The notes under the pieces: generated by a model
What the model was told of the DNA's origin: nothing
Seen by the model: the letters and a program-made list of their open reading frames with translations, nothing else
Database searches by the model: none
Origin: Bacillus cereus
Lineage (GTDB): Bacteria; Bacillota; Bacilli; Bacillales; Bacillaceae_G
DNA length: 64,000 nucleotides
Reading direction: 5' to 3'
NCBI RefSeq assembly: GCF_002584535.1
Contig: NZ_NUOT01000013.1
Span: forward strand, 90,501 to 154,500
Part shown: piece by piece, positions 1 to 54,518 of the stretch
Position numbering within the stretch: the first letter of the stretch is position 1
How the letters are laid out: each line of letters starts with the position of its first letter
Translations under genes and position numbers: made by a program

Positions 1-1520
1 TTAAGTTCTTTATAAGTCACAGAATGATTTTCTGTTACGATTGCAATTTGATCTGGAACCTTATTGAATTGTTTTTCTAAGTAGTAAGAAACTCCACCTT
101 TATGATACAAATCACCCATTGGATTATCCGCATGTTCGTTTGTTCGATCAATCAGTTCTACATCTTTTGTTAATAATACTTTAAGCTCTGCTATTTGCTT
201 ATCTGGCTGTGAGGTAGTAACATCAAGAATATTTTTATAAAAATTCAAAAAACTCTCCATAAACTCTTTCGTCATATGAGAAGCATTATATTGAATAACC
301 CCATGTAATGAAGTATTAACTTTTTCAAATATACACGTTAGATCAGATTGCGCAAATTTCTTTAGAAGAGGGAATGAAGAAAATTTTATTTCTCCCATAT
401 CTAATGTAATCCCTTCCACACCTGCAAAAAATAACGAGGCACCTTCAAAATCAGAAGTTCTTGCTTTTTCTAGTACAAACATAGTTTGATATAAAGGCTG
501 GTTAGCGGAATTACCTTGATCATTGTACTTCTCTATCAATTCTTGATAAGATACCCTTTGATTTGAGAATATTTTTCTTACATCACGTTGTACCAAATTG
601 GCATACTCAGCAAAAGATTGCGTGTCATTTACCAAGCAGTTTACAGGTAATGTATTCACATAATAACCAATCTTATCTAGATGTTTTTTTGAATGCCGTC
701 CTAAAAAAGGAACTCCTGTAGCGATATTGTTATTATCAAAATAATAAGATAGCACTATATGGTAATTTGCTAATAAAAAACTAAAAGGAGTAACACCCAT
801 CTTAAAGGACTCCGAATAAATTTTTTCAGTTAAATCTTTATCTAACTGCAAAACAATGGATTCAGCTGTTTCACTTTTCAACATATCCCTAGACTTTCCG
901 AATGGCAGCTGAAGTTCCTCTACCCCTTTGTGTAATCTTTCTTTCCAATAATCTAATGACTTCTTATATTTATCTGTTGTTTTATACTCATCTAACATCT
1001 CAATATGATCAAAAAAAGAACAGTCATTTGCTACTAGAGAAAAATCTTCGTTATTCCTCATCTGTTTATAAATAGAAGCGATTTCTTTCAATATCACAAT
1101 AAGTGACCAATAATCGACAACGATGTGGTGTGTAATAAGCAATACATATTTATTATTATCATCAGTAGTAGCAACTATAAATCTAGAAAGTGGTCCATTC
1201 TTTAAATCAATCAATTTATTTGCTTCAATATTGAAAAAATCACGTACTTCCTGCTCGTTTATAAAAGTGTAGGTTTCAAAAGATACACGATTATTTTCGT
1301 TAACCGTTTGTAGTATTTCACCATTTTTCTCAATAAAACGAGCACATAAAATAGGATGTTTCACAGAAATTAAATCACTAACCTTTTGTAAATCGTATAC
1401 ATCTATATCACTTTCAACCTTTGCAGAAAAGTAAGTATTATATGCCGTTGATTGCGGATTGGCCGTTTGTATTTTCCATAATCCTTTTTGACCCTCTGAC
1501 AATTTATATTCTTTATTCAT
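1..1520 (-). CDS. Nonribosomal peptide synthetase, N-terminal part (condensation domain, start of adenylation domain)
   Basis: Partial gene: it starts with ATG at 1520 and is open to the window edge, giving about 506 residues. I translated it by hand from the reverse strand. Residues 1 to about 450 are a condensation domain; the active-site motif HHxxxDxW is present (H131, H132, D136, read as HHIVVDYWS). From about residue 465 the sequence turns into the start of an adenylation domain (PDQIAIVTENHSVTYKEL). Beginning with a condensation domain suggests either acceptance of an acyl or peptidyl group from another protein, or N-acylation. It is the fourth gene of a leftward operon after kamA, a thioesterase and an SbnA-like synthase, 134 bases downstream of the last. 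The activated amino acid cannot be read because the specificity residues lie outside the window. Confidence 0.93.
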   Translation of the reverse strand, partial: MNKEYKLSEGQKGLWKIQTANPQSTAYNTYFSAKVESDIDVYDLQKVSDLISVKHPILCARFIEKNGEILQTVNENNRVSFETYTFINEQEVRDFFNIEANKLIDLKNGPLSRFIVATTDDNNKYVLLITHHIVVDYWSLIVILKEIASIYKQMRNNEDFSLVANDCSFFDHIEMLDEYKTTDKYKKSLDYWKERLHKGVEELQLPFGKSRDMLKSETAESIVLQLDKDLTEKIYSESFKMGVTPFSFLLANYHIVLSYYFDNNNIATGVPFLGRHSKKHLDKIGYYVNTLPVNCLVNDTQSFAEYANLVQRDVRKIFSNQRVSYQELIEKYNDQGNSANQPLYQTMFVLEKARTSDFEGASLFFAGVEGITLDMGEIKFSSFPLLKKFAQSDLTCIFEKVNTSLHGVIQYNASHMTKEFMESFLNFYKNILDVTTSQPDKQIAELKVLLTKDVELIDRTNEHADNPMGDLYHKGGVSYYLEKQFNKVPDQIAIVTENHSVTYKEL

Positions 1521-1654
1521 TTTTGATCCCACCCTAAGTATCAGTAGTTTAAGTAACAAAGTACTTTTTTATAAAATAGAAATGATGAGCCCCCATCATT
1601 TAGAAAACCTAATTACTCCTTAGTGCTATCTGATTGATACAAATGTTTAAAACC

Positions 1655-2632
1655 CTATATCAAACTGAGTTCTTTTTCAGAATGAGGATTCAATACTTTA
1701 TGACACCATTCCTCATTGTAAATCGTATCAAAATATCGATCTCCCCTATCTGCAAACAGCGTTACTACATTAGGCTTTTTCACATAGTTTTTATCTTTAA
1801 AATAATTTTTCACTGCACCGTATACAGCACCCGAAGAACCTCCAGCAAATATTGCATGTTTACTTAAGAGTTCTTTACACATTTCTATGCTCGTTTTTTC
1901 ACTGATTATCACAACATCATCAATGATTGAATCTTTTAGAATATCCGGTACAATACTTGAGCCTATCCCAGGGATGGATCTATTTTGAGGTTGCAAACCA
2001 AAAATAACAGAACCTTCCATATCTACCGCGATAACTTTTGATTTCGGGAACTTCTCTTTGACACAATTAGAAATGCCAGTAATTGTCCCCCCAGAACTTA
2101 CACCTAAAAAAATATAATCCACTTCAATTTCGTTACATATTTGCTTCCCTACGGTCTCGTAATATGCATTTGCAACTAATTTATTACCGTATTGATTAAT
2201 CCAATATGAATTTGCTATTGAATTTCTTAGCTCATTAACCTTCTCTAACCTTGTGATTAAATATCCACCTGAATTATCGGGTTCTGTTACTTTTATTACT
2301 GTTGCTCCTAGAGATCTAATGATCATTTCATTCACAGGTAAAATTTTCGGATCAACCACGCAAATAAATTTCAAACCTAGCCTTTTACAATAACTTGCTA
2401 AAGCGATACCAAAATTACCAGACGAAGATTCAATAATTGTTGTATCCTTGTCGATATCACCTTTCTGAAGCAAAGTTTCAAGAATGTGTGCAGCTGCTCT
2501 ATCTTTAACGCTACCAGTAGGGTTGTTTCCCTCTAATTTAACGAATAAATTCACATTACATAAGTCTTTACTTGTTAGTTGTACCATTGGCGTTTTTCCA
2601 ACAAAATCTAATACACTATTATAAATACTCAT
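1655..2632 (-). CDS. SbnA-like PLP-dependent N-(2-amino-2-carboxyethyl)-L-glutamate synthase (diaminopropionate pathway)
   Basis: A 325-residue member of the cysteine synthase/OASS fold. Lys43 in NPTGSVKDR is the expected PLP Schiff-base lysine, SSSGNFG is the substrate loop, and GVSSGGTITG is the phosphate-binding loop. In the SbnA family, O-phosphoserine and glutamate are condensed to ACEGA, which SbnB oxidises to L-2,3-diaminopropionate plus 2-oxoglutarate. The SbnB-like partner is present at 5939-6907 on the other strand, which favours this role over plain cysteine synthesis. The start overlaps the end of the thioesterase gene by 14 bases and has a GGGAGT site, so translation is probably coupled. 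Cysteine or cystathionine beta-synthase activity is the alternative. Confidence 0.85.
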   Translation of the reverse strand: MSIYNSVLDFVGKTPMVQLTSKDLCNVNLFVKLEGNNPTGSVKDRAAAHILETLLQKGDIDKDTTIIESSSGNFGIALASYCKRLGLKFICVVDPKILPVNEMIIRSLGATVIKVTEPDNSGGYLITRLEKVNELRNSIANSYWINQYGNKLVANAYYETVGKQICNEIEVDYIFLGVSSGGTITGISNCVKEKFPKSKVIAVDMEGSVIFGLQPQNRSIPGIGSSIVPDILKDSIIDDVVIISEKTSIEMCKELLSKHAIFAGGSSGAVYGAVKNYFKDKNYVKKPNVVTLFADRGDRYFDTIYNEEWCHKVLNPHSEKELSLI

Positions 2633-3356
2633 AATTTACTCCCACTTGATTCTTGTTATTTTTTTCATAAATTAATGATTTGTTTATAATGTTATTAATA
2701 TATTCAACGTTATTGTTAATGAAAAAATGGTTACCATTTAATGTATAAACTATCGCTTCACGCTCGCTGTATTTATTCCATTCTAGAGCTTCCTCTAGTT
2801 TTACTGTATCTTCAGTTCCTATAAGAATGGAAATATCACATTCGATTTTATGCTGATTAGGATTATATTCGTATTCTCCTAGTATCTTTAAATCATTCCT
2901 TATTATCGGTAGAAACAAATCTGTTAATTCTTTACTATCAACCAACTCTTGTGGGATGCCTCCAAGAGCATTCAATTTACTTAGCAATTCCTGATCAGAA
3001 AAATGATGTAATTTTTCTTTATCTTTCATCCGATCCGGTGTTTTGCAACCAGAAAAAAATATATGTTCTGGTAATCTTTTGCCCTCAGAACGGATCTTAT
3101 GATATAGCTCGTAAGCTAATATACTTCCCATGCTATGTCCATATAATGCATACTGATTTTGGTCGATCTTATCCTGAATCATATTATAAATATCATCCGT
3201 TACTTCTTTCATACTCATATAGAAGCCCTCATTAAATCTTTGTCCCCTTCCTTTCAACGGAACAGGATGTAAATAAATAGATTTATCTAAATGATTCCTC
3301 CATTTGTAATACCCTACCTCCGAACCACCAGCGTAAGGTAGACAAAATAATAGCAT
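2619..3356 (-). CDS. Type II thioesterase (GrsT-like) of the NRPS cluster
   Basis: A 245-residue alpha/beta hydrolase of the stand-alone thioesterase family that clears mis-primed or stalled carrier domains of NRPS and PKS enzymes. The N-terminus LLFCLPYAGGS is typical of the family, the nucleophile elbow is GHSMGS with Ser75, and the later acid and histidine fit GTEDTV and GNHFF near the C-terminus. It sits between kamA (79 bases upstream) and the SbnA-like gene (14-base overlap) in the same direction, so it belongs to the operon. The start ATG follows a run of six G. No unusual feature. Confidence 0.9.
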   Translation of the reverse strand: MLLFCLPYAGGSEVGYYKWRNHLDKSIYLHPVPLKGRGQRFNEGFYMSMKEVTDDIYNMIQDKIDQNQYALYGHSMGSILAYELYHKIRSEGKRLPEHIFFSGCKTPDRMKDKEKLHHFSDQELLSKLNALGGIPQELVDSKELTDLFLPIIRNDLKILGEYEYNPNQHKIECDISILIGTEDTVKLEEALEWNKYSEREAIVYTLNGNHFFINNNVEYINNIINKSLIYEKNNKNQVGVNYEYL

Positions 3357-3435
3357 GCATTTCCCCCCTTTAAATAGAAACTTTCTAATTATAACTATTA
3401 AGATGAATATTTAAAAATGCAGATTAAAAAGACTA

Positions 3436-4845
3436 TTACACTTTATTGAGTTCATGATTACTTGCCATTTTTTGAAGCTGGGATTGATACTTCTTTTCTT
3501 TTAATTTATCCCTTTTATCCCTATTATTCTTCAATGAAATATGACCAGGATTTTCTTCATACCCTTTTCTTCTACTATACCTCGACAAACCTTCTGGAAT
3601 TAAGCTAGACTGTTTATCTTGGAGTATCCCTGCAACCCCTATAGTTGAAGATTCATTTATATATTGTGGATAGATTTTCTTGAAATAGTCTAATGCCCTA
3701 TTAGCCTTATAGTCTTGCGGCTCAGGATACGATGTAATGACACCTTCAAAATTACGTAAAACCACTTTATCAGGACTTTGTGAAATGATATAGTTTGGCT
3801 GAATAGCAATTTTACCTCCTCCGCCCGGCGCATCTACCACAAATGTAGGTACTGCATAACCCGACGTATGCCCCCTGAGTCCTTCAATAATTTCAAGACC
3901 TTTCGATATAGGGGCTCTAAAATGACTAATGCCTTCTGATAAATCACACTGATATATGTAATAAGGGCGAACACGAATCTTTACTAGATCATGCATTAGC
4001 TTTTTCATTATTGTTACACTATCATTGATACCCGCTAATATCACTGACTGATTTCCTAATGGCACACCTGCATCAGCAAGCATTTCACACGCCTTTTTTG
4101 CTTCCTCTGTAATTTCAATTGATGTATTAAAGTGAGTATTCAGCCATATAGGATGATATTTCTTTAAGATATTACAAAGATTCTCTGTAATTCTTTGTGG
4201 AAAAACGACTGGAGCACGTGTCCCTATTCGAATAATCTCAACATGAGGGATCTCTCTTAAACTTTTCAGTATGTACTCCAATATAGTGTCATTAATTAAC
4301 AAACCATCTCCGCCGGAAATTAATACATCTCTAACCTCAGGCGTTTCTCTTATATACTCAATAGCTCTGTCTAACTGCTTTTTCGGAACCGCCATACCCA
4401 CTTGGCCAGAGAAACGTCGACGTGTGCAGTATCGGCAATACATTGAACACTGATTGGTAACTAAAAATAACACTCTATCTGGATATCGATGAGTTAAACC
4501 AGGAACTGGAGAATCTTCATCTTCCTCTAATGGATCCTCAAGATCGTACTTTGTTTTATATACTTCATTCGAAATCGGTACAGATTGCATCCGAATTGGA
4601 CAATGCGGATCGTCCGGATTCATCAGTGAAGCATAGTACGGAGTAATATTAAGCGGGATTGTTTTTGTAGATATTCTTATTCCCTCTTCTTCATCTGGTG
4701 TTAAATGAATTACTTTTTTTAAATCTTCTAAGGTACGGATTGTATTCGTAAGTTGCCAAACCCAATCATTCCATTGGTCTTCAGTAACATGTTTCCACAT
4801 TTCTATATCTCTCCAATGACGGGTTGGTTTGTATAATTGATCCAC
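3436..4845 (-). CDS. kamA: L-lysine 2,3-aminomutase (radical SAM/PLP)
   Basis: 469 residues, close in length and sequence to the Bacillus KamA (YodO) enzyme that converts L-lysine to L-beta-lysine. The radical SAM cluster motif CxxxCxxC is present as CSMYCRYC, and the glycine-rich PGGGGK segment of the PLP/SAM site is intact. A GTG start follows GGGAG by 11 bases. It is the first gene of the leftward operon that leads into an NRPS, so here it probably supplies beta-lysine as a peptide building block and not for lysine fermentation. The C-terminal 60 residues are lysine- and arginine-rich, as in other Bacillus homologues. Confidence 0.93.
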   Translation of the reverse strand: MDQLYKPTRHWRDIEMWKHVTEDQWNDWVWQLTNTIRTLEDLKKVIHLTPDEEEGIRISTKTIPLNITPYYASLMNPDDPHCPIRMQSVPISNEVYKTKYDLEDPLEEDEDSPVPGLTHRYPDRVLFLVTNQCSMYCRYCTRRRFSGQVGMAVPKKQLDRAIEYIRETPEVRDVLISGGDGLLINDTILEYILKSLREIPHVEIIRIGTRAPVVFPQRITENLCNILKKYHPIWLNTHFNTSIEITEEAKKACEMLADAGVPLGNQSVILAGINDSVTIMKKLMHDLVKIRVRPYYIYQCDLSEGISHFRAPISKGLEIIEGLRGHTSGYAVPTFVVDAPGGGGKIAIQPNYIISQSPDKVVLRNFEGVITSYPEPQDYKANRALDYFKKIYPQYINESSTIGVAGILQDKQSSLIPEGLSRYSRRKGYEENPGHISLKNNRDKRDKLKEKKYQSQLQKMASNHELNKV

Positions 4846-5938
4846 TTTTGAACAACTCCCTGAATTATTAGATGAATAGGTTATGATAGTAACTTTAATG
4901 CTTTTTAATCTAAAGTATTGTGCTTGTAAATATGATATAGCGATACTTCATATTCATTTAAAAAGGACGGTACATATTGATGATTCCCCACCATTATCCA
5001 ATTGATAATTTATGGCATTTTTTGTATTTAGCATCAGATTCACTACCTTCTTGCTGTTTAACTTTCTGTATCTAAAATATACGTGTCAATTTATGTTAAT
5101 AACAATCAGTAAAATTTCACAAAAAATCTGGCAATTCATTTCTTGTTTTCACTGCTTTATTTTACATATTTGCGATGAAGAGAAATCATGACAGTACTTC
5201 AGTTTATATTTAGGAATAATAGGAATGGCAAACTCCTACATAGTAAAAATTCTGTCATTGCTCATTTTATATATAAGAAAGACCTTTACATGTCTATGAT
5301 CCTATAAACTTAATATGCTGGGTGGCTACCAATTCTATTTCAAGTAAAATTTGTATAATAAAAAAACAGGTAGAATCTACTTTCTACCTGTCAGACTGTC
5401 GACAAACCCCATTCAAATTAATAAAAAAATGTAAGTATCGCTTACATGAACAAATTTTTCAATCGCCGAAGGATTGTCCAACGCATACCATTTTTTATTC
5501 TCTTCCGTATGCCGAAGATGGCCCACTTCTTCAAGATAGCCTCCCCATAGATAGCGGTGAACCATCTTCGTTTAATTTTCCTAAAGCAGCTCTATCATTA
5601 GATTAAAATACAGCTAATCATTTTTAGAATATTTTTTTATATGCAAATATGATACAATAATTTACATAATTGTCAATCAACTCAGAAAACTACAACTTTA
5701 TATCTAAATACTACTTCTATAAACTTTCATTTGCATTCTTAATTATTGTTATTTTAAACAAATGGTTATTCTACTTTAAAATATCAATCTCAAAAACAAT
5801 AGCAATAAGTGTTTATAGATTAGGGATTTTTGAAAGGATGTGTTCTACTCTTTATATTCATTCTACTTTTTAAAACAAACGTTTTATTTTAAGCCTGAAA
5901 GTTTTAGACTAATACATTTTAACTAGGGGTGTAGAAAA
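4846..5938. other. Intergenic region between kamA and the SbnB-like gene, with IS remnant
   Basis: Almost 1.1 kb without an intact gene, separating the divergent kamA operon and the SbnB-like gene. It must hold both promoters, but I could not assign boxes with confidence in this very AT-rich DNA. A hairpin lies at 5365-5391 (ACAGGTAGA and TCTACCTGT arms), just outside a decayed transposase tail (separate entry). Other short open frames here look non-coding. Confidence 0.6.
5395..5568 (-). pseudogene. Decayed C-terminal remnant of an IS1182-type transposase
   Basis: Read on the reverse strand from about 5568, the frame gives GMRWTILRRLKNLFM, a stop, then AILTFF, followed by a frame break and NLNG. 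From memory this matches the C-terminal core of Bacillus IS1182-family transposases, which read roughly HGMRWTTLRGLKKLSMQAMLTF and so on. The glutamine codon after FM has become TAA. Downstream the sequence GTTTGTCGACAG and the hairpin at 5365-5391 would fit the element's end. No N-terminal part remains. The family assignment rests on motif recall only. Confidence 0.5.
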
Positions 5939-6907
5939 TTGCTTTACTTAAATTCTAAAGATATTACTGATATTGGAATCAACTGGATAAAAACAGTTGA
6001 AATAATTAAAAAAGCTGTCAACGTTATGAATCATTCTGATTTCTCACAACCAATAAAGCCTTATCTACAATTTAATGATCCAGACAATCGGATTATAGCA
6101 ATGCCAGCGTTTGCTGGGGGAGAGTTTTCAGTAGCAGGTATTAAGTGGATCGCTAGCTTTCCTAAAAATCTTGAAGTTAGTATACCTAGAGCAAATTCAA
6201 TCACAATATTAAATGATGCGACTACTGGTGTACCATTCGCAACAATTAATACACCAATTGTGAGTGGTATACGAACTGCTTCTGTATCAGGTCTTATGAT
6301 TCAAGAGTTTGATAAAGTACATAATCTAAATGATGTAACACTCGGAATAATCGGGTTGGGCCCAATAGGTCAATTACATTTACAAATGGCAACAACCCTT
6401 TTAGGAGATAAAATTAAAAATATACGTCTTTTTGATATATCGGAAATCGATAAAAATAAAATCCCAGTAGAACTTAGAGAAAAAGTCACAATATGCTCGT
6501 CATGGGAAGATGTGTACCGTGATGCAGATATATTTATTACGTGTACTGTATCAAGTAAAGGATATATTGATGGTCCTCCAAAACCAAATGCACTGCTACT
6601 AAACGTATCACTACGTGATTTTAAAACTGATATACTAGACTATTCACCAGTAATTGTAGTTGACAATTGGGAAGAGGTATGTCGTGCAAATACAGATATA
6701 GAAGTCATGCATAATGAAAGAAATTTACAAAAATCAGACACTCTTGATATTAAAGATATTGTTTGTAGTAATGCATTTAAAGAGATTACAGAAGATAAAG
6801 TTGTCATGTTCCATCCAATGGGAATGGCTACTTTTGATATCGTAATTGCTCAATATTACTATGATCAAGCCATTGCTTTAGGCTATGGTCAACCGCTAGA
6901 AGCATAG
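5939..6907 (+). CDS. SbnB-like ACEGA dehydrogenase (ornithine cyclodeaminase family), diaminopropionate pathway
   Basis: 322 residues of the ornithine cyclodeaminase/mu-crystallin family. The NAD-binding Rossmann motif is GIIGLGPIGQLHL around residue 140, and family signatures RANS and NDATTGVPFA precede it. In siderophore and antibiotic clusters SbnB oxidises ACEGA made by SbnA to L-2,3-diaminopropionate. The SbnA-like partner lies 3.3 kb away in the divergent operon. The start is TTG at 5939 with AGGGGTG six bases upstream. A strong hairpin terminator follows at 6975-7016, so this gene is transcribed alone. Ornithine cyclodeaminase activity is the alternative reading. Confidence 0.85.
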   Translation: MLYLNSKDITDIGINWIKTVEIIKKAVNVMNHSDFSQPIKPYLQFNDPDNRIIAMPAFAGGEFSVAGIKWIASFPKNLEVSIPRANSITILNDATTGVPFATINTPIVSGIRTASVSGLMIQEFDKVHNLNDVTLGIIGLGPIGQLHLQMATTLLGDKIKNIRLFDISEIDKNKIPVELREKVTICSSWEDVYRDADIFITCTVSSKGYIDGPPKPNALLLNVSLRDFKTDILDYSPVIVVDNWEEVCRANTDIEVMHNERNLQKSDTLDIKDIVCSNAFKEITEDKVVMFHPMGMATFDIVIAQYYYDQAIALGYGQPLEA

Positions 6908-6974
6908 GCTATTAGCAACTCAAATTAAGATTTAACTGTTCAGTTAACCTAATCAACCAATTGAAGAAAAATAC

Positions 6975-7016
6975 AAAAAAGTGTTCTGGATTTTCGATCT
7001 TCAGAACACTTTTTTC
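6975..7016. terminator. Intrinsic terminator after the SbnB-like gene
   Basis: AAAAAAGTGTTCTG pairs perfectly with CAGAACACTTTTTT around a 13-base loop. It has a U tract in both directions and lies 68 bases after the stop codon of the SbnB-like gene. Confidence 0.88.
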
Positions 7017-7130
7017 ATTTTATCAAACACCGCTTTCGCAGCGCTTATTTAAAAATGCATAACTACTATGTGAATCATGGTTGAATCTTTGATTCTCTTC
7101 TAAATCATACTTTTTTATCCCGATTGGTGA

Positions 7131-7188
7131 GGGCTAATAATCAGTGGGAGATGAAGAAAATCCCCACTGATTAAAGTTTCACTTTATG
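7131..7188 (-). repeat. bcr-like dispersed repeat, partial copy in inverted orientation
   Basis: Reverse-complement match to the first half of the longer copy at 12572-12727: on the minus strand it reads ATAAAGTGAAACTTTAATCAG, then TGGGGA, a spacer and CCCACTGATTATTAG. The AATCAGTGGG/CCCACTGATT arms can form a hairpin. It lies in the 370-base gap between the SbnB-like gene and the membrane protein; the rest of that gap shows nothing else. Related copies are at 45150-45222 and 46724-46831. Confidence 0.7.
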
Positions 7189-7298
7189 AATTCTCCATTT
7201 TTTTTAATTATCAATTCAAAAAACAAGAAATTTTTTACAATTAATAGTAATATAGAACATATACATATTTATTAAAAATGGTGGGGGCTATTTCAATC

Positions 7299-8156
7299 AT
7301 GATGCGTGCACTTAACTTACATATAAAACAAGCCTTTTTAAATAAGATTTCTCTCACTCTCTTATTGAGTTGGTTAATTCTTGTCTCAATTTATCATTAT
7401 TACTATGTTTTACGATATTTAGGAGGACTACCTGACGGGCTTTTAATAACTGCTTATAAATGGATTGGCTTTCGTGATAATGGGATGGATGTGTATTTAC
7501 TATTAATGCCTGTACTAGCAGCACTCCCTTTTAGCACGAGCTATAACTCTGATAAAGTTGATAAATTCAAATCATTTGTAAGTAAAGAAATTCCCTTTTT
7601 CCCTTATGTATTTACGAAATATATCGTGACCTTCCTAATTGGGGGGCTTCTTTATATTCTCCCATTCGTATTTTCATTGCTGTTTTGTAAACTGACAATT
7701 CCAGATGGTATTCCGACAACCGACTTAGGTATTATTAAGGACAACAGCATGTTTTCATCTTTATATTTCTCTTCTCCAATTTCTTATATTTCCCTATATA
7801 TCGGGATTAATTTTTTATTTGCTGGTCTTATGGCGGTATTGGGTCTTTCTGCATCCATATGGTCTAGAAAAGATTACATGGCAATTCTATTCCCTTTTGC
7901 TATCACCTCTCTACCATATATTATTTTAAATATCGTATTCCCTACAATTGGCGGAGCGCCTATTCATTTATACGATCCAAAACAACCGCTCCAAGGAATG
8001 TCGCCTTACATTGGAATCGTGCAATGCACCTTGTTTTTAGGAATTAGTTTATTTATGTATATGAAAGGTATACAGAAAGATCGAAAGCAATATATGCGGA
8101 GACTTCAAAAAAGAATGCGATGTAAAAAATCGATTCAAAAATCAGTTAGTATGTAA
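7299..8156 (+). CDS. Polytopic membrane protein of unknown function (ABC-permease-like appearance)
   Basis: About 285 residues, with roughly six hydrophobic segments and a basic C-terminal tail (residues 255-285 carry KDRKQYMRRLQKRMRCKK). I prefer the ATG at 7299, because GGTGGGGG lies about ten bases upstream of it, while the earlier in-frame ATG at 7278 has no ribosome site. I do not recognise the family; the layout resembles permeases of ABC exporters with a single short cytoplasmic N-terminus, but no ATPase gene is adjacent. Its position beside the NRPS cluster could mean a transport or self-protection role, which is only inference. Confidence 0.75.
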   Translation: MMRALNLHIKQAFLNKISLTLLLSWLILVSIYHYYYVLRYLGGLPDGLLITAYKWIGFRDNGMDVYLLLMPVLAALPFSTSYNSDKVDKFKSFVSKEIPFFPYVFTKYIVTFLIGGLLYILPFVFSLLFCKLTIPDGIPTTDLGIIKDNSMFSSLYFSSPISYISLYIGINFLFAGLMAVLGLSASIWSRKDYMAILFPFAITSLPYIILNIVFPTIGGAPIHLYDPKQPLQGMSPYIGIVQCTLFLGISLFMYMKGIQKDRKQYMRRLQKRMRCKKSIQKSVSM

Positions 8157-8163
8157 TACAAAA

Positions 8164-8196
8164 TACCCCTCAGCTATTATGCTGAGGGGTACTTTT
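8164..8196. terminator. Bidirectional terminator between convergent genes
   Basis: TACCCCTCAGC and GCTGAGGGGTA form an 11-bp stem with a six-base loop between the convergent membrane protein and nuclease genes; T-rich on the plus-strand side. Confidence 0.85.
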
Positions 8197-8198
8197 AC

Positions 8199-10565
8199 TT
8201 AGGATGCTTTTTTCAAATCAATTTGTGCAAGCACTGGGTCATGGTCACTCATACGGCCATGTTCCTTCATAATGTTGGAATTTAAATGTACCGGATCCAC
8301 AACTGTATGTGGTGCCATATTATTTGTTACTAAAACATGATCTAATACTTGTGCATTGCCGTCATGAATATATGTGTAACGATTTTCTTTCGAAACCGTT
8401 TCTAACATATCTTGCATGATATCGCCTTTTAATGCTTGCAGTGGTTTCGAGAATTCAAAGTCATTCATATCACCAACTACAACCACTGGTGCATTCACAT
8501 CTCGTTTTTGAATATCTTTTACAAAGCTGTTCACTTCCTGCGCCAGTTGAACGCGTTTCTCTTCACTCTTTAATACAAGAGGTTGAATTTTTCCAAACGG
8601 CGTCGCATCACCAAGTTTTGAATTTAAATGACTTGAAATAACAACAATATTTTGCCCTTGGAATTTAAACTCCGCAGCTAGCGGTTTACGAGTATTATCA
8701 AATACCGGATTATCTTGTCCAATGCGCGTCGGGTTTGTTGCTAACAGCTTTGGATTCTTTTCTAATTTCACACGTGATGGATTATAGAAGAAACCAACGC
8801 GAATGTTCGCTCCCGGTGCCCCGCCATCTTGGTTGTTTTGCGGAGCAACTTCTACATATTCATACTTAGGTCCATGAATTTCTTGCACAGCATCAATAAT
8901 ACGCTTTGCACTTAATGAAGCATCTGTTGTTCCGTCATTCGTTGATCCATTATTATCTTGCATTTCTTGTACACCAATAATGTCTGGCATCTTTAAATTA
9001 TATTTAATAGCATATGCCATTGCTTTTACCTTTTCATCAGATGTTTCTTTTGCATTCGCTGAAAAGTTTTCAATGTTATATGTTGCCACTGTTAATTTTC
9101 CAAGACGAGGCTGAATATTAGCGCCTGCTTGTTTAAACCCGCCATCCGTTACAGATGGTAATTCTGTTACCGGCGAAATACGATACGCACCATAGTCATA
9201 GCCGACTACACCTGTGATATCTCCATTAAATGTATCTCCTGATTTTGCTACATAATCACGAGGTACTTTTAAAGAAAGACGTTCTGGATTGAATTGATTC
9301 TCGCCTAACAATGGTGTTCCATATTTTGTAGTGACCTTATCTCCACCATTTGCAACTGTTACATATAAATTTCCATTTTTCTGCGGTCCAACAATTTGAG
9401 GAGTTGGCATTGTCACGCGCATACCCTCTATACTTTCATAGAAATCAATTGCATCTTCCTCTGGATCAAATACACCAAATGCATCATTATCAATAATTTG
9501 ATCTGGAATCTTTACACCCTTTTCACCTAATACAGTTGCTTCTGGCAACTGTTGATGATTTGCTTTCACTGAGGCATTGCTCGCTTTAATTTCTGTGATG
9601 GCTAAATCTGTATCAAATCTGTCAGCGTATCCAGCTCCAATAAATTCTTCTACCTCACCATCAACGTGCACAAGATCTCCTACTGCTACATTCGCTTCTT
9701 TCTTATAGACATAAATTCCTTCTGAAGTTGCCGTGTCTTCGTCAGGCTGCGAGTCTTGCATATAAAAACCATTCTTATCTAACGCTGTTACGACACCTTC
9801 TACATTTCGTACTTTCTTCCCATTATAAGGAGAAACATGTGATTTCCCTTGAATATCATGAATACGAACTTGCTCACCTTTTATAATTGTAAAAGAAAAT
9901 GTCGAAACTTCTGAAGGTGCAAGTCCTTCTTTCACTGCAATTGCTTTTATCACACTGTTCTCATTTATAACAATCGATTCATTATAACGAATACTTTTAT
10001 CTGTTGGAACAGAGCCATCTAATGTATAGTAGATTGTTGCTCCTTCTGTACTTGTGGTTAATGTTACTGCTGTTCCTTTTTCAATTTCCCCACCATTTGG
10101 TGATGCAGTCACATCACTTACACGGTTTTCCGTTTGTCCTTGAAACTTATATGCTGTTACGGACTTTAAACCAGGGCTACCAAAATAAAGCTCAAGCGTC
10201 CCTGTTAATTGAACTTTCTTCCCAACATTTTCAGGATGATCTTTTACATTCACTGCTGCTCTCACGTCACCTTTTGGCAACTGAACAGGCATGATTTTCG
10301 CAGGATCTGTCTCATTTGGAGAATCTGCAATTGCAACATTCGTATCTCCAAATTTCGCAGGATCTTTCGTGTACTTAGAAGGCCCTTCTGTATATCCAAC
10401 AATATACCCTTCCACTATCCCTTTACTGCTTCCTTGCTGCTTAAACAGTTGAATTGCATCCTGCACAGATAATACAGAATGTTCTTCTGCTTTTACTAAA
10501 GTTCCAGTAAATGAAATCAGTAGTATAAATGATAGCAAGATACTTACTAGTTTCTTCAAATTCAT
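8199..10565 (-). CDS. Secreted multidomain nuclease (YhcR/endonuclease-exonuclease-phosphatase type)
   Basis: 788 residues with a signal peptide (hydrophobic residues 9-23, cleavage near VKAEE). In order: a DUF6359-like domain (about 30-140); a chitobiase-type segment (about 145-225, ATIYYTLDGSVPT); OB-fold-like segments (about 230-470, containing NVEGVVTALDKNGFYMQD); and a C-terminal endonuclease/exonuclease/phosphatase domain. The latter carries NIENFS, GVQEM, SSHLNSK, VVGDMNDF and MSDHDPV, so the metal-binding and catalytic Asn, Glu, His and Asp residues are intact. It is an extracellular DNase or phosphohydrolase. No LPxTG anchor is visible at the C-terminus, so it is probably released. 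It is monocistronic, sharing the terminator at 8164-8196. Confidence 0.87.
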   Translation of the reverse strand: MNLKKLVSILLSFILLISFTGTLVKAEEHSVLSVQDAIQLFKQQGSSKGIVEGYIVGYTEGPSKYTKDPAKFGDTNVAIADSPNETDPAKIMPVQLPKGDVRAAVNVKDHPENVGKKVQLTGTLELYFGSPGLKSVTAYKFQGQTENRVSDVTASPNGGEIEKGTAVTLTTSTEGATIYYTLDGSVPTDKSIRYNESIVINENSVIKAIAVKEGLAPSEVSTFSFTIIKGEQVRIHDIQGKSHVSPYNGKKVRNVEGVVTALDKNGFYMQDSQPDEDTATSEGIYVYKKEANVAVGDLVHVDGEVEEFIGAGYADRFDTDLAITEIKASNASVKANHQQLPEATVLGEKGVKIPDQIIDNDAFGVFDPEEDAIDFYESIEGMRVTMPTPQIVGPQKNGNLYVTVANGGDKVTTKYGTPLLGENQFNPERLSLKVPRDYVAKSGDTFNGDITGVVGYDYGAYRISPVTELPSVTDGGFKQAGANIQPRLGKLTVATYNIENFSANAKETSDEKVKAMAYAIKYNLKMPDIIGVQEMQDNNGSTNDGTTDASLSAKRIIDAVQEIHGPKYEYVEVAPQNNQDGGAPGANIRVGFFYNPSRVKLEKNPKLLATNPTRIGQDNPVFDNTRKPLAAEFKFQGQNIVVISSHLNSKLGDATPFGKIQPLVLKSEEKRVQLAQEVNSFVKDIQKRDVNAPVVVVGDMNDFEFSKPLQALKGDIMQDMLETVSKENRYTYIHDGNAQVLDHVLVTNNMAPHTVVDPVHLNSNIMKEHGRMSDHDPVLAQIDLKKAS

Positions 10566-10829
10566 CGTCCTCCCCTAATTTTAATATTCTCTTAGCATGT
10601 ATTATCATAACAAAAAATTCTTTATAAAGAACTTAAAATTCGACAAATTTTACAAAAAATTAATCTCATACTTCCGTATGAGTCTGATATTACAATTTCC
10701 ACATCATTCTTTTAATATAAGTAGAACTCATACAGAAAGAAGTGAAATGTTAATCTTGTATCTTGCAGACAGGTATTTTACTTTTGAAGGGGAATTATTA
10801 TAATAAAATATTAAGATAAGGGTGAAAAC

Positions 10830-11092
10830 ATGAAAAGAGTATTAATAAACAAAGCTTCCTATTTAGATAAATCCGAATTAGAGCGTTTGAATACTGCTAT
10901 ATACTTTGCCGAGAAAGCTCACGAAGGGCAATTTCGAATTTCAGGTGAACCCTATATTACTCACCCAATTGCAGTTACAGAAATCTTACTAGACTGTAAA
11001 GCCGATATCATAACTTTAGTGGCAGCATTACTACACGATGTGGTAGAAGATACAAATTACACAATTGAGGAAATACGTGATACGTTTGGTGA
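10830..11092 (+). pseudogene. Truncated RelA/SpoT-type HD domain gene (5' fragment)
   Basis: The first about 88 residues are the N-terminal HD hydrolase region of a RelA/SpoT-like or MESH1-like (p)ppGpp hydrolase. EKAHEGQFRISGEPYITHPIA carries the first metal His region and LLHDVVEDT the HD pair. The family needs about 175 residues or more, but from about 11092 the reading changes and the frame ends at 11144 after a non-homologous tail. A plausible ribosome site (GGGTGA) lies before ATG 10830. The missing 3' half, and the 2H-type sequence that directly follows, show a deletion that joined two genes. The fragment lacks the distal metal ligand and is unlikely to be active. Confidence 0.8.
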
Positions 11093-11098
11093 AAAAAA

Positions 11099-11473
11099 GT
11101 GGAGAAATTTTGTAAACAAATGCCTTCTTTCACTTTATCTTTAGGAAAACCACAATTCTTTGGAAAACAAGTTTTATTCTTAAGTGTAGAAGACTCAAAA
11201 GTTTATAAACTACATCGTCTTTTAGTACAAGCAGTCCCTCCATCAGATGATTTGATTAAAAGGTATATGGAAATGGAACAGTATCATCTCCATTTAACGC
11301 TTGGACAAACCCATTGGGGTTTAACTTCGGATGAATTGGTACAAATGGAACAAGTGGCTAGAGATGAATTTACACCATATCCTGAGTGGACCGTTAATTT
11401 CATAAGAATTTATCAAGAAATAGAAGAGAATAAATATCAACCATACAAAGACATTCCGTTTTTAAATTTGTAA
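11099..11473 (+). pseudogene. 2H phosphoesterase (2'-5' RNA ligase-like) gene, 3' fragment
   Basis: In another frame from the HD fragment before it. The protein has one visible HxTx motif (HLHLTLGQ at about residues 72-79) of the 2H phosphoesterase/2'-5' RNA ligase superfamily, preceded by FLSVEDSKVYKLHRLL. The family normally has an N-terminal half with the first HxT motif, which is absent here. The nominal GTG at 11099 has no ribosome site. With the truncated HD gene directly upstream, this is best explained by a deletion with one end in each gene. Confidence 0.75.
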
Positions 11474-11623
11474 ACTTAAAGATACATTGACTTCTGATAA
11501 CGATAATTATGTAAATGAGCTATCCAAATGGATGGCTTATTTTATTTTTTTGCTTAGCGTGATTTTTTTCCGAAATGCTGGCGATACCCCATTAATTAGA
11601 TATAGTATGTGAAATTTTAAAAG

Positions 11624-11655
11624 AAGACACTCAATTCGAGTGTCTTTTCTTTTTG
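11624..11655. terminator. Terminator between convergent units
   Basis: AAGACACTC and GAGTGTCTT with a five-base loop and T-rich flanks. It ends the lipoprotein gene on the minus strand and any plus-strand transcript from the chimeric scar. Confidence 0.82.
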
Positions 11656-11664
11656 TAGATAATA

Positions 11665-12192
11665 TTATTGAAGATTTACTCGAACTTCTTCTTCTGATAA
11701 GGAAATTGGTTTGAAGATTAATTGAAGCTTAGGATCTCCTTGTTTTGATTCGAAAGCAATAGTTCCAGTTATTTTCCCATTTTGTGCAAGTTTTCCAAAA
11801 TTTAATTGAGTATCTTGGTTAATCATAGTTAACGTTGGATCTACAATATTTCCTTCACTGTTTTGTAAACTGAAATCGTGAGCATTATAATGTATTTCTT
11901 CTTTTCCGCCGTTTTCTATAGTTACATTAGCGATTAAAAATTCATGACCCTCTTTAGGTTTATCGAATTCTCCACCTGGAGACTTTTCAACATTTGTAAC
12001 AGTTAATTTGTGATTTCCAAGATTAATTGTTTCGCCAACTTTAAATTTTTTTTTCTCTTCTTTCTTTTCAGTTGTTTGTTCTGTTTTTGTATCATTTGAT
12101 ACTTTCTTGGCAGTTTCTTCTGTATCACTACATCCCGCTAGACTGATAGCAAGCGCTCCAGTTATAACGAGTGTACCCATCTTCTTATACAT
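11665..12192 (-). CDS. DUF4352 lipoprotein
   Basis: 175 residues with a lipoprotein signal: positively charged start, hydrophobic core and lipobox LAGC with Cys21, so it is anchored outside the membrane. A lysine/glutamate-rich linker (residues 24-48) leads to a DUF4352 immunoglobulin-like domain (about 50-170; LTVTNVEKSPGG, EFLIANVTIENGGKE, GTIAFE). Such proteins are common in Firmicutes; their function is not known. It is monocistronic with the terminator at 11624-11655. Confidence 0.87.
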   Translation of the reverse strand: MYKKMGTLVITGALAISLAGCSDTEETAKKVSNDTKTEQTTEKKEEKKKFKVGETINLGNHKLTVTNVEKSPGGEFDKPKEGHEFLIANVTIENGGKEEIHYNAHDFSLQNSEGNIVDPTLTMINQDTQLNFGKLAQNGKITGTIAFESKQGDPKLQLIFKPISLSEEEVRVNLQ

Positions 12193-21544: not shown

Positions 21545-22981
21545 TTATTCTTTTTGCTTATACCAATCTCGTATGTAATTGGCATCCTCTTCACGCACAT
21601 GCTTCAATTCATAATGACGCCCAATAGCGCTGCAAGCTACCGCTATAATATACGTATACAGCCTATCTTTACGCTGAAAATACGATTGCGTTTTTGTCAT
21701 TGCTTGTACATGTCTTCTTCTCACGAATCCTGTATACTTGGCGATGCCCCTGTATACAAGCGTTAACTGATCAGATTTTATCGCATATCCACCCGTTTTA
21801 TATTTTCCATACCCAAGAATCGTAAAGAACAAAAATAATGGCACTAATGTTAATAACGCACTATATTGCTCGAAATACAAACTTGCCCCTATAATCGGTA
21901 CCGATGCAAGTCCAAAAATAATCCAGCCCATAATCAAGTAACGACGCAGCGCAGCTTTTGGCAAATGTACAATTTCCTCTTCTATTTCATACGGCAACTT
22001 TAAATAGGTCAATAGCTCTTGTACATCCTTTTTCTTCATAAGCGGGTGCAATATGACATTCATATTCTTTGTATCTATGCTTTGAATGACTTCTACTTCC
22101 ATAGAACAATAGCCAAACGGTTGACGAAGAATTCCTTCTTTCATTGTCAACGCTTGAATCCGGTGCAATTTTAAAACAATCTCTTTCTTTTCGAGTAGCC
22201 CTTGTGAAATGCGAATTTCATTTCCGTTTCTCTGCACGGTAAAGTTCGCGTGTTTGAAAGCATAGCCAATTGTAGAGATGATCCATGAGATTACGATTAA
22301 AATCGCGCCCATGTATAACAAATTATATACACTATTGTCTTTCACATATGATTCTATTTCATCTATTAACCATTTCGGAAGAACGTTATCAAACTGTGTA
22401 TAAAGAAAGAACAATCCTGAAAATAACAAGCCAAACTGACCGGATGTAATAGACGCTAGCAAAATTTCTTTTGCTGTTAACTGATAAACAGTTGTGTTTG
22501 TTTCTTGTCGCAAGCTTTCCTCTTCTTTTATAGGCTTCTCGTCTTCTACTTTATTTAATAAGGCGATTAATTCTTTCGCTTCCTCTTCCTTAATACCAGC
22601 TAACGTTACCTCTGGATCCTTCCCACCACCAGCCGCTTCAATTTTGAGCTTCGTTAATCCAAATAACTGATAGATAATATTTGAAGTCGTACTAATTGTT
22701 TGCACACGCTCTTTATTTAGATAGCTTTCCTTTTTAACAAATACCCCTTGTTTTATATGTAAAATGTTGTTTTCAATCCAATAAACTTTAAAGTACCATT
22801 TCACAAACGAAAAGATGGCCAAAATCAATAAAAAACCTACAATGAAAATGGGAAACCAATACCAAGGCTCTCTTTCATCTTTCGGACCAAATAAAACAAC
22901 GATAATAAGCGGAAATAAACTAGAAATCCTTATATCAAATAATATCGTAATCGGATGTTGCCTTTTATTCATCCTCATCAC
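21545..22981 (-). CDS. YdbT-like membrane protein with bacterial PH (DUF304) domains, copy 1
   Basis: 478 residues with pairs of membrane segments alternating with bacterial PH-like domains: KQGVFVKKESYLNKERVQTI (about 75), RISQGLLEKKEIVLKLHRIQ (about 260) and YRGIAKYTGFVRRRHVQ (about 410) are the three repeat starts. YdbS/YdbT proteins of B. subtilis give resistance to some bacteriocins; here that is inference. The start overlaps the end of the YdbS-like gene by 17 bases. A second pair lies at 24857-26735. Confidence 0.85.
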   Translation of the reverse strand: MMRMNKRQHPITILFDIRISSLFPLIIVVLFGPKDEREPWYWFPIFIVGFLLILAIFSFVKWYFKVYWIENNILHIKQGVFVKKESYLNKERVQTISTTSNIIYQLFGLTKLKIEAAGGGKDPEVTLAGIKEEEAKELIALLNKVEDEKPIKEEESLRQETNTTVYQLTAKEILLASITSGQFGLLFSGLFFLYTQFDNVLPKWLIDEIESYVKDNSVYNLLYMGAILIVISWIISTIGYAFKHANFTVQRNGNEIRISQGLLEKKEIVLKLHRIQALTMKEGILRQPFGYCSMEVEVIQSIDTKNMNVILHPLMKKKDVQELLTYLKLPYEIEEEIVHLPKAALRRYLIMGWIIFGLASVPIIGASLYFEQYSALLTLVPLFLFFTILGYGKYKTGGYAIKSDQLTLVYRGIAKYTGFVRRRHVQAMTKTQSYFQRKDRLYTYIIAVACSAIGRHYELKHVREEDANYIRDWYKQKE

Positions 22982-23441
22982 TCACTTTCGCAAGTTCCCC
23001 AATTCGTCGTTTCAACTCTTCTGCTTCTCTCTTTGTTAACCCTGGAATACTATGAGAAGTCGCTGCCGTTGAAATTTGTAATTCTGCTAGCTCATATTTT
23101 CTCATAATCGGCCCTTGTTCGATCGTAACATGCTGAACACGTATCATCGGAACAAGTACACGTTTTACAACAAACATCCCTCTTTGAATTTCAATCTCTT
23201 CTTCATCTAGCCGGTAGCTATAGTACCGCTGGCGTAATGCGGGAAAAATAAAGTAATCTAGCGGTGCATACAGTATCGTCAAGGTGACCAATACACCAAA
23301 CAACCAGCCCCACCAATGAAATTGAATCATAAAAAAGAGATATGCTAAAACGATGCTTACAAGTACCCCGGCACCAATTAATGCATGGATTTTCCACACT
23401 TTCACCATATTCGGATGAATTTCATTTTCTAATGGATGCAT
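22965..23441 (-). CDS. YdbS-like membrane protein with PH domain, copy 1
   Basis: 158 residues: two membrane segments (about 18-60) and one bacterial PH-like domain (YRLDEEEIEIQRGMFVVKRV, then PMIRVQHVTIEQGPIMRKY). It is the first gene of a two-gene operon with the YdbT-like gene and overlaps it by 17 bases, implying a hetero-complex in the membrane. The second copy at 26259-26735 is very similar throughout. Confidence 0.87.
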   Translation of the reverse strand: MHPLENEIHPNMVKVWKIHALIGAGVLVSIVLAYLFFMIQFHWWGWLFGVLVTLTILYAPLDYFIFPALRQRYYSYRLDEEEIEIQRGMFVVKRVLVPMIRVQHVTIEQGPIMRKYELAELQISTAATSHSIPGLTKREAEELKRRIGELAKVSDEDE

Positions 23442-24856: not shown

Positions 24857-26275
24857 CTATTTATCCTTATACCAATCCACCATACGCTCTGCATCTTCCA
24901 AACGCATATGCTCTAATTTATAATTTGTGGATGCACTAGAGAAAGTTTGCGAACATAAATGGGCTCCACGCTGAAAATAAGACTGTGTTTTCTCGATTGA
25001 TTGTACATGCCTTCTTCTCACGAGTCCCGTATATTTAGCAATATTACGATACACCATTGTCAACTGTTCCTCTTCTACCCTGTAACCACCTGCACGGAAT
25101 GTCGCATAACCAAGTGACATCAGTAATACAAACAGAGGTAACAGTAGCCAAATAATAAAGTATTTTTCAAAATATATACTTGCGCCTGTAACCGGAACTG
25201 CTAATATACAAAAGAAAATAAAACTGTCTAATAAATAGCGACGCAGTGCCGTTTTTGGCAAGGCTGTAATAGTAGGATTTAGTTCATATGGCAACTGTAA
25301 ATGTGCAAGCAATTCTGCGACGCGGTCTTTCCGAATAACTGGATGAAGTGTAACGTTCTCCTCACCTTTTTCATTATTTTGAATGACTTCTACATGAATA
25401 GAACAGTAGCCAAATGGTTGACGGAATATCCCTTCTTTTATCGTGATCCCTTGAATGCGGTGCAGCTTTAACACAAGTTCTTTTCTCTCAAGAAGCCCTT
25501 GTGAAATACGAATTTCATCATTTTTCCGGTGCACAGTAAAGTTCGCATGCTTTAAGGCGTAGCCAATTGTAGATACGATCCAAGAAACAACAAGTAACAT
25601 CGCAACTAGATAAATCCAGCCATACACATCATGATCCATCACATATGCTTCTGCTTTGTCTTTCATCCATTTCGGGATATACTCATCTACTTGCGAATAA
25701 ACAAGGAATAAGAGAGAGAACAACAAACCAAATTGACCGGACGTAACCGACGCTAATAAGATCTCTTTCCAAGTCAACTTATATTCCGTCTTATTCTCCT
25801 CTTCCACACGAATTTGTGAAGAATCCTCTTGTATTTCTACGGCTTCCCCTGCCTGTTCATTTAACATTGTAATTAATGATTTTGCTTCATCCATCGTAAT
25901 ACCTGCTAAACTGACCTCAGGCTCATTACCACCGCCAGCTGTTTCAATTTTCAGCTTTGTTAAACCTAATACTTGATATAACATACTTGAACTTGTATTA
26001 ATTGTTTGGACGCGCTCTTTATTCAAGTAACTTTCTTTCTTCACAAATAACCCTTGTTTAATGTGCAGTACATTATTTTCAACCCAATATACTTTATAGT
26101 ACCACTCAACAATAATAGAGATAACTGAAATCACTAGGAAACCTATCGGTACTAAATACCAAAATGGAAATTTCCCTTTTAAACTAAACAGAAAAATAAT
26201 GAATGGTATAAAGTCTGTTATCTTTAATTCAAGTAACATCGTGATTGGATGCTGCCTCTTATACATCCTCATCAC
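24857..26275 (-). CDS. YdbT-like membrane protein with bacterial PH (DUF304) domains, copy 2
   Basis: 472 residues, colinear with copy 1 (21545-22981) along the whole length. Shared landmarks are KQGLFVKKESYLNKERVQTI, RISQGLLERKELVLKLHRIQ and YRNIAKYTGLVRRRHVQS. Membrane segments and PH-like repeats are in the same order. It overlaps its YdbS-like partner by 17 bases exactly as in copy 1. The two pairs lie about 1.4 kb apart in the same direction, so the operon was duplicated in tandem and has since diverged, most in the first membrane segments and the linker at 140-170. Confidence 0.85.
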   Translation of the reverse strand: MMRMYKRQHPITMLLELKITDFIPFIIFLFSLKGKFPFWYLVPIGFLVISVISIIVEWYYKVYWVENNVLHIKQGLFVKKESYLNKERVQTINTSSSMLYQVLGLTKLKIETAGGGNEPEVSLAGITMDEAKSLITMLNEQAGEAVEIQEDSSQIRVEEENKTEYKLTWKEILLASVTSGQFGLLFSLLFLVYSQVDEYIPKWMKDKAEAYVMDHDVYGWIYLVAMLLVVSWIVSTIGYALKHANFTVHRKNDEIRISQGLLERKELVLKLHRIQGITIKEGIFRQPFGYCSIHVEVIQNNEKGEENVTLHPVIRKDRVAELLAHLQLPYELNPTITALPKTALRRYLLDSFIFFCILAVPVTGASIYFEKYFIIWLLLPLFVLLMSLGYATFRAGGYRVEEEQLTMVYRNIAKYTGLVRRRHVQSIEKTQSYFQRGAHLCSQTFSSASTNYKLEHMRLEDAERMVDWYKDK

Positions 26276-26735
26276 TCACCTTCGCAAGTTCTCCAATTTG
26301 TCGTTTCAATTGTTCTGCTTCTCTCATCTTTAAACCTGGAATACTATGAGAAGTAGCGGCAGTTGAAATTTGTAATTCTGCTAGATCATATTTTCTCATA
26401 ATTGGACCTTGCTCAATTGTAACGTGTTGCACACGTATCATTGGAACTAATACACGTTTAACTGTAAACATGCCGTGCTGAATTTCTAATTCTTCTTCAT
26501 TTAAGCGGTAGCTGTAATAACGCTGCCGTATTTTTGGAAAGACAAAATAATCAAGCGGTGTATACACAACCGTTAGTCCAATTAGGATATAAAACAGCCA
26601 AGCCCACCAATTAAACTTAATCATGAAAAAGAGATAAGCAAGGATAACTAACACACTTATGCCCAGCTCCATTACAACACGAGCTTTCCAAACTTTGACC
26701 ATATCAGGATGAATTTCATTTTCCAGTGGCTGCAT
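26259..26735 (-). CDS. YdbS-like membrane protein with PH domain, copy 2
   Basis: 158 residues, same length as copy 1. The C-terminal PH-like half (VLVPMIRVQHVTIEQGPIMRKY, ISTAATSHSIPG) is nearly identical to copy 1, whereas the membrane half is more diverged. First gene of the duplicated pair. The stretch CTCCAAATTTAG just upstream of the start is also shared with copy 1, so the 5' region was part of the duplication. Confidence 0.87.
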   Translation of the reverse strand: MQPLENEIHPDMVKVWKARVVMELGISVLVILAYLFFMIKFNWWAWLFYILIGLTVVYTPLDYFVFPKIRQRYYSYRLNEEELEIQHGMFTVKRVLVPMIRVQHVTIEQGPIMRKYDLAELQISTAATSHSIPGLKMREAEQLKRQIGELAKVSDEDV

Positions 26736-47007: not shown

Positions 47008-47199
47008 TTAAATTTCTTTTGGTGCTGGGAAGTCTGCGTGACTATTATCAGGTGCTCCAACATTGTATGCTAAGTCAGGGTTTGCAGGTGCCGGTACATC
47101 CCCATGATTAGCTTGCTGTGTAAATGAACTATTTAAACCAACAGATACGATACCAGCTAACGCTAAACCTGTTACCACCACACGAATTTTTTTAAACAT
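47008..47199 (-). CDS. Phr-type pheromone precursor
   Basis: 63 residues with an export signal (FKKIRVVVTGLALAGIVSVGL) and a C-terminal part from which a short signalling peptide would be cut. Its start codon overlaps the stop of the rap gene by one base (TAATG), the classic Rap-Phr arrangement. Two related segments occur: H32-GDVPAP and H54-ADFPAP. In Bacillus Phr precursors the mature peptide comes from the C-terminal region, so ADFPAPK or a part of it is the likelier signal; this is inference. Confidence 0.85.
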   Translation of the reverse strand: MFKKIRVVVTGLALAGIVSVGLNSSFTQQANHGDVPAPANPDLAYNVGAPDNSHADFPAPKEI

Positions 47200-54386: not shown

Positions 54387-54518
54387 AATGTAACGTCCTT
54401 TCTCCGTGATACTCAGTCTTATTTTAGCACGATATATCACAGATTTCTTTTGTATAATTGTTCGTTTTACAGTTGAATAGCTTTAACATTCTGATTGTTT
54501 ATTCTAGAGGGGATTTTC

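Follow-up and report, generated by a model that had tools for sequence, protein, structure and literature searches.

Does the lysine 2,3-aminomutase gene (kamA, or ablA) at the left edge of a Bacillus cereus stretch belong to lysine degradation, as in its relatives, or to the synthesis of a peptide? The stretch, hereafter the window, is the 64,000 nucleotides (nt) from position 90,501 to 154,500 of contig NZ_NUOT01000013.1 (assembly GCF_002584535.1). There, kamA lies with sbnA and sbnB, whose products make L-2,3-diaminopropionate (L-Dap), with a gene for a stand-alone (type II) thioesterase and with the beginning of a nonribosomal peptide synthetase (NRPS). This association, first proposed in a sequence-only reading of the locus, was confirmed by the open frames and by Pfam and NCBIfam profiles, whose matches are much stronger than chance would give. 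Our answer is that kamA has most likely been recruited to supply beta-lysine, alongside L-Dap, to a nonribosomal peptide, and we lean, with moderate confidence, towards an accessory NRPS cluster having its own supply of both building blocks.

The clearest indication came from what surrounds kamA elsewhere. We considered 45 kamA loci from other genomes and found yokU directly 3′ of kamA, on the same strand, in 42 of them; two distant KamA-like matches under threshold (L012 and L013) were omitted from this count, and the three loci without yokU were two from Alkaliphilus and one (L041) with a GNAT acetyltransferase gene upstream. Such loci are normally lysine-degradation operons in Bacillales; the annotated order in both Cytobacillus spongiae and Bacillus velezensis was aminotransferase, CoA-transferase A, CoA-transferase B, peptidase, ablB, ablA, yokU and yozE. 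When the eight proteins of the L126 operon were queried against the window, ablA alone was found; ablB, yokU, yozE and the CoA-transferase genes are absent, by these queries, from its whole length. The place of yokU is taken by the thioesterase gene, which lies 79 nt 3′ of kamA. Judged by its neighbours, the gene thus appears to be a Bacillales-type kamA in a non-catabolic setting; the combination of kamA, sbnAB and an NRPS appears unusual, and the switch of context clean.

The genes kamA, thioesterase, sbnA and NRPS follow one another on the minus strand with spacings of 79, -14 and 134 nt. A Shine-Dalgarno-like sequence precedes each of them, no frame is broken, and a hairpin scan found no minus-strand terminator-like site inside the run. 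The claim that kamA comes first held for this same-strand run, and the four genes would be co-transcribed. That kamA is also dedicated to the product of the cluster, as had been proposed, is favoured by the gene order and by the lost catabolic neighbours; we infer this dedication and regard it as likelier than not, because both precursor pathways look intact, kamA heads the same-strand run and its usual operon has been left.

Each enzyme was then compared with family profiles and solved structures. KamA scored 647.2 bits against the AblA profile of NCBIfam (TIGR03820, cut-off 525.4) and matched the Pfam families LAM_C (1.1e-57) and Radical_SAM. Aligned to the solved protein 2a5h, it has kept CxxxCxxC and the counterparts of Asp293, Asp330 and Lys337, which we take to be the radical-SAM cluster, the two substrate residues and the lysine that holds pyridoxal phosphate, respectively. 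SbnA reached 395.5 bits against TIGR03945, above the cut-off of 349.95, and 7.7e-65 against Pfam PALP; its best solved relative is the SbnA 5d84, whose Tyr152 and Ser185, presumably residues of the O-phosphoserine site, have kept equivalents. SbnB matched OCD_Mu_crystall at 2.7e-32, and its best solved relative was 4m54, deposited as 'Putative ornithine cyclodeaminase' and presumably the SbnB of Staphylococcus aureus. Its identity to the SbnB partners was 47-61% at 18 of the 19 sbnA loci having one, and 32% at the other (L105). The thioesterase matched its Pfam family at 6.3e-37, with 5ugz ('Putative thioesterase') as best solved relative. The NRPS frame spans 3-1559 and matches Condensation (PF00668) at 2.9e-74; its start is probably the ATG at 1520, preceded by GGGTGGG. 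Of the NRPS that had been announced for this edge, the window includes no more than one condensation domain and, of the adenylation domain after it, the initial ~45 residues. The SbnA/SbnB "pair" is likewise real as two genes; these lie 3.3 kb apart on opposite strands, not side by side.

On this basis we propose that positions 1-8156 would belong to an accessory island of the Bacillus chromosome, devoted to a nonribosomal peptide and seen here at its edge. SbnA and SbnB would make L-2,3-diaminopropionate, KamA would convert lysine to beta-lysine, and the stand-alone thioesterase would clear carrier proteins loaded wrongly. The NRPS starting at 1520 would join both residues into a peptide, possibly after an acyl starter. 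The kamA gene would have come from a Bacillales operon for lysine degradation and would now head a biosynthetic one. Of the separate parts, that L-Dap feeds the NRPS is highly probable, and that beta-lysine does so is fairly probable.

Several observations weigh against this proposal. The 45 comparison loci were taken as the best KamA matches and not at random. The score of SbnB against TIGR03944 (321.1 bits) lies just below the cut-off of 326.9, and sbnB is transcribed apart from the kamA-NRPS run; it is placed 1.1 kb upstream of kamA on the opposite strand, whereas it stands directly 3′ of sbnA, on the same strand, in 19 of the 22 loci compared. The NRPS is visible only as far as the first motif of its adenylation domain (A1), short of the region from which substrate specificity would be read. 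Pfam and NCBIfam scans of 1-8156 recognised no gene for a carrier protein, a transporter or resistance. The G+C content of kamA (0.371) is nearer to that of three host genes (0.381-0.388) than to that of the thioesterase (0.314) and the NRPS (0.311), so kamA may have an origin different from that of its neighbours. Finally, no relative with the order kamA-thioesterase-sbnA-NRPS was found among the comparison loci, and therefore the comparison offers no proof of the genes travelling together.

We also looked at how often kamA and sbnA are linked. None of the 22 sbnA neighbourhoods contained kamA (4/22 had a related thioesterase), nor did any of the 10 loci, at 55-61% identity, obtained by scanning genome contigs for SbnA. 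Among 398 sampled Bacilli genomes, SbnA was found at an E value of 1e-75 or better in 49 and a KamA match in at least 182. Considering the matches listed and same-contig pairs only, sbnA and kamA were within ~70 kb of each other in none of the 49 sbnA-bearing genomes, the nearest pair being ~76 kb apart (genome G143); genes on separate contigs may still be neighbours. SbnA was not found in viral contigs, nor, at 1e-60 and in a search run without a positive control, in the 19-genome family (including G503) that was our closest comparison set.

Peptides with beta-lysine and Dap are, to our knowledge, tuberactinomycin-type ribosome inhibitors from actinomycetes. Tuberactinomycins such as viomycin and capreomycin carry both residues in one product; their NRPS modules take Ser, Dap, ureido-Dap and capreomycidine, and beta-lysine has a ligase of its own. 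Their Dap enzymes are homologous to SbnA and SbnB (PMC3179956, in the portion available), as are those of the window. Kinship between the two systems, which the sequence-only reading had suggested for comparison, was not supported: the window SbnA scored 276 bits against S. aureus SbnA 5d84 and 158 against capreomycin CmnB, the window SbnB 133 bits against 4m54 and 39 against CmnK. These scores place the window Dap enzymes in the Sbn type and not in the tuberactinomycin type; the Bacillales-type AblA is a further difference.

Closer to home, we know of no kamA in the zwittermicin A cluster and of no beta-lysine in edeine. Zwittermicin A clusters of B. cereus and B. thuringiensis resemble the window in their SbnA/SbnB-type L-Dap pathway (zwa5A/zwa5B, according to the same portion of PMC3179956), and edeine, from Brevibacillus brevis, can be likened by its product only, a peptide that contains 2,3-diaminopropionic acid (PMC6804068, as far as the text was available). 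The closest cluster found was that of genome G277 (contig C14, ~234-260 kb), which has sbnAB (SbnA 65% identical), a stand-alone thioesterase (46%) and several condensation-adenylation-thiolation modules. It differs in that sbnA and sbnB are adjacent, the two stretches read hold no kamA and the KamA match of the genome is marginal (6.4e-4); we know of no product assigned to it. Alkaliphilus transvaalensis (L006) also has sbnAB, a thioesterase (42%) and an NRPS within ~6 kb of sbnA, this NRPS beginning with AMP-binding, carrier and condensation domains; in contrast to the window, it has no kamA within 10 kb, and its KamA matches (60% and 46%) are on other contigs. In the titles and abstract openings of open-licence PMC papers we found no Bacillus product that joins beta-lysine and Dap. 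An undescribed, probably acyl-initiated cationic peptide with L-Dap and beta-lysine, made by a Sbn-type Dap pathway and a captured kamA, that is a precursor set assembled independently of the actinomycetes, is a more specific proposal and a doubtful one. If the Bacillus cluster does supply both residues, it would be a second, convergent origin of this supply and would show clearly how a catabolic aminomutase can be drawn into making a peptide, and kamA without yokU or ablB, adjoining an NRPS, would be a handle for genome mining.

Among the alternatives, the one that survives best concerns how the peptide starts. The N-terminal condensation domain might take a carrier-bound acyl chain, as in an acyl-initiated lipopeptide or siderophore, with Dap and beta-lysine as later residues; we regard this as possible, somewhat short of an even chance, and it is compatible with the explanation we prefer, so that the probabilities of the two overlap. 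An acyl ligase, a free acyl carrier protein (ACP) and a special first condensation domain form a well-described initiation route (PMC9113097, portion available). The window domain stands at the N-terminus, no donor carrier precedes it, and its active-site motif reads HHIVVDYWS. The nearest motif, HHxxxDFWS, occurred in 2 of 48 other condensation domains: that of L113, which follows AMP-binding/DIP2-like and ACP-like domains in the same protein, and the N-terminal one of an Acinetobacter operon (L124), with a similar ligase gene, an acyl-CoA dehydrogenase gene and a free carrier protein gene upstream. The domain of L118, which reads DVWS, follows an acyltransferase-domain gene, and AB3403 (4zxh), the best solved match of the window domain, has DFWS. 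In the table of these motifs two domains gave no motif and that of L003 was miscalled.

Against an acyl start, the window domain is just 20-26% identical to those domains, and the acyl-ligase- or free-ACP-fed domains of L114 and L006 retain HHxxxDG. An internal domain of G277 (L095) reads HHIISDEWS, so that a residue other than Gly at this position is not special to starters. Altered motifs have been reported more often with small acceptor residues (PMC8097023, portion available), which is another reading of the same position. The tree of condensation domains, which omitted L065, L083, L084, L087 and L099 as duplicates or near-duplicates together with matches yielding <400 residues, joined two long branches and is unsafe; we rejected as evidence any subtype taken from it. 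With Pfam and NCBIfam no acyl ligase (FAAL) or ACP was recognised in 1-8156, most of the cluster being beyond the window. Motif and position together hint weakly at an acyl donor. As a separate matter, the L124 record (CAKLQH020000009.1) is labelled Acinetobacter phage; since its operon of AMP-ligase, carrier protein and NRPS is of AB3403 type, it is probably bacterial sequence.

A second alternative is that only L-Dap passes through the assembly line and that beta-lysine is added later, through a ligase or acyltransferase of its own, as happens with tuberactinomycins and streptothricins. In the tuberactinomycin route a separate enzyme does attach beta-lysine after assembly. No such ligase or acyltransferase gene was seen in the visible part, which is the edge of the cluster only, and we consider this alternative rather unlikely.

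It is unlikely, too, that kamA is a housekeeping-type ablA gene rather than one dedicated to the product. In a tree of 48 KamA proteins the window KamA grouped with the Bacillales housekeeping AblA proteins, outside the sampled family clades, although the support of the fork was weak (81/73). The highest identity to any protein of the tree was 82%, and in the class and order samples no relative exceeded 83% across most of the KamA length; a single match limited to 333 residues reached 89%. Spare copies of kamA are common: all 19 genomes of the family had a strong match and 16 had two, the second one in three of them (G548, G671 and G617) covering only ~333 residues at 86-87% identity. This reading must face the absence of the usual kamA partners already described and the thioesterase gene lying 79 nt downstream on the same strand, which fit the recruitment to peptide synthesis that we prefer. 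The host's own core kamA is not favoured either, the window protein being outside the sampled family clades (on that weak fork) and its context different.

Three further observations concern kamA genes in other genomes. In genome G259 a full kamA has a similar partial match (89%) 9 kb away. Two of the six loci read have a serine-recombinase-like gene next to kamA-yokU (L058:1-555 and L061:1-495, Pfam Resolvase being confirmed for L061); this recombinase gene could be the sign of an integration site close to kamA and of a means by which kamA is moved. The kamA of B. cereus (BC2251) is a predicted member of the sigma-54 regulon (PMC4524646, portion available).

The coordinates of the features are given in Table 1.

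Table 1. Features at the left edge of the window, with positions counted from its first nucleotide.
Feature	Positions	Strand	Content or basis
NRPS 5′ end	3..1520	-	N-terminal condensation domain and adenylation domain start to motif A1 (VTYKEL, read by eye); leaves the window
sbnA, N-(2-amino-2-carboxyethyl)-L-glutamate synthase type (first step to L-2,3-diaminopropionate)	1655..2632	-	TIGR03945
Thioesterase, stand-alone (type II), GHSMG motif	2619..3356	-	PF00975
kamA/ablA, lysine 2,3-aminomutase (L-lysine to beta-lysine), heads the run	3436..4845	-	TIGR03820
Long stretch separating the divergent genes kamA and sbnB, no gene recognised	4846..5938		Open frames, profile and Rfam scans
sbnB-type dehydrogenase, second enzyme of L-2,3-diaminopropionate synthesis; divergent from the other genes	5939..6907	+	TIGR03944
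Hydrophobic 292-aa protein, family unassigned	7278..8156	+	Hydrophobicity read from sequence

The stretch between kamA and sbnB contains a minus-strand terminator-like hairpin at 5392-5365. A promoter scan was uninformative (34 sites versus 36.1 in shuffles). No Rfam family reached its gathering score in positions 1-12000, and the idea of a riboswitch ahead of kamA was dropped for this reason. A 94-codon open frame without family match (5322-5606) may be the degraded remnant of the end of a gene since lost. Positions 1-8200 gave no megablast match among 72,556 plasmid records, and 4846-5938 gave none even when these were searched in distant mode.

To place the island, we compared the window with its relatives. 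Genomes G503 and G450 share with the window the gene order of the block rightward from 8199 (endonuclease, hemY, hemH, hemE, penicillin-binding protein and others to glpD), the window copy having extra genes relative to both. Beyond the endonuclease, G503 and G450 have a photolyase gene and a TetR-family gene; the window has the NRPS edge there and contains neither. These two genomes are close to each other (their TetR gene is 99% identical), hence the comparison is nearly one observation. The 7278-8156 protein matched no family of Pfam or NCBIfam at 0.001 (best Pfam E 0.22) and nothing in the 19 related genomes, the latter in a search without positive control. Because the flanking block is conserved in two relatives in which the photolyase adjoins it, and because the 7278-8156 protein has no match, positions 1-8156 most likely represent an accessory insertion. 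The protein may serve the island in transport or immunity, and a strong terminator-like hairpin (8164-8191) lies 3′ of its gene. In the flanking block, ferrochelatase (hemH) is identical at 279/309 positions to the solved chain 2c8j, which we take to be from B. anthracis; this makes a B. cereus-group relative plausible. The endonuclease has no relative above 64% identity in the class and order samples.

Elsewhere in the window, always on the minus strand, we noticed three other loci. Two near-tandem two-gene operons of bPH_2 (bacterial PH domain) proteins are at 21545-23441 and 24857-26735, their large proteins being 58% identical. A protein with RapH_N and TPR domains (47199-48293) is a candidate Rap-type quorum-sensing phosphatase. 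At 50218-54440, a large SMC/AAA-type ATPase adjoins a Mre11/SbcD-like phosphoesterase, the two being a putative nuclease pair.

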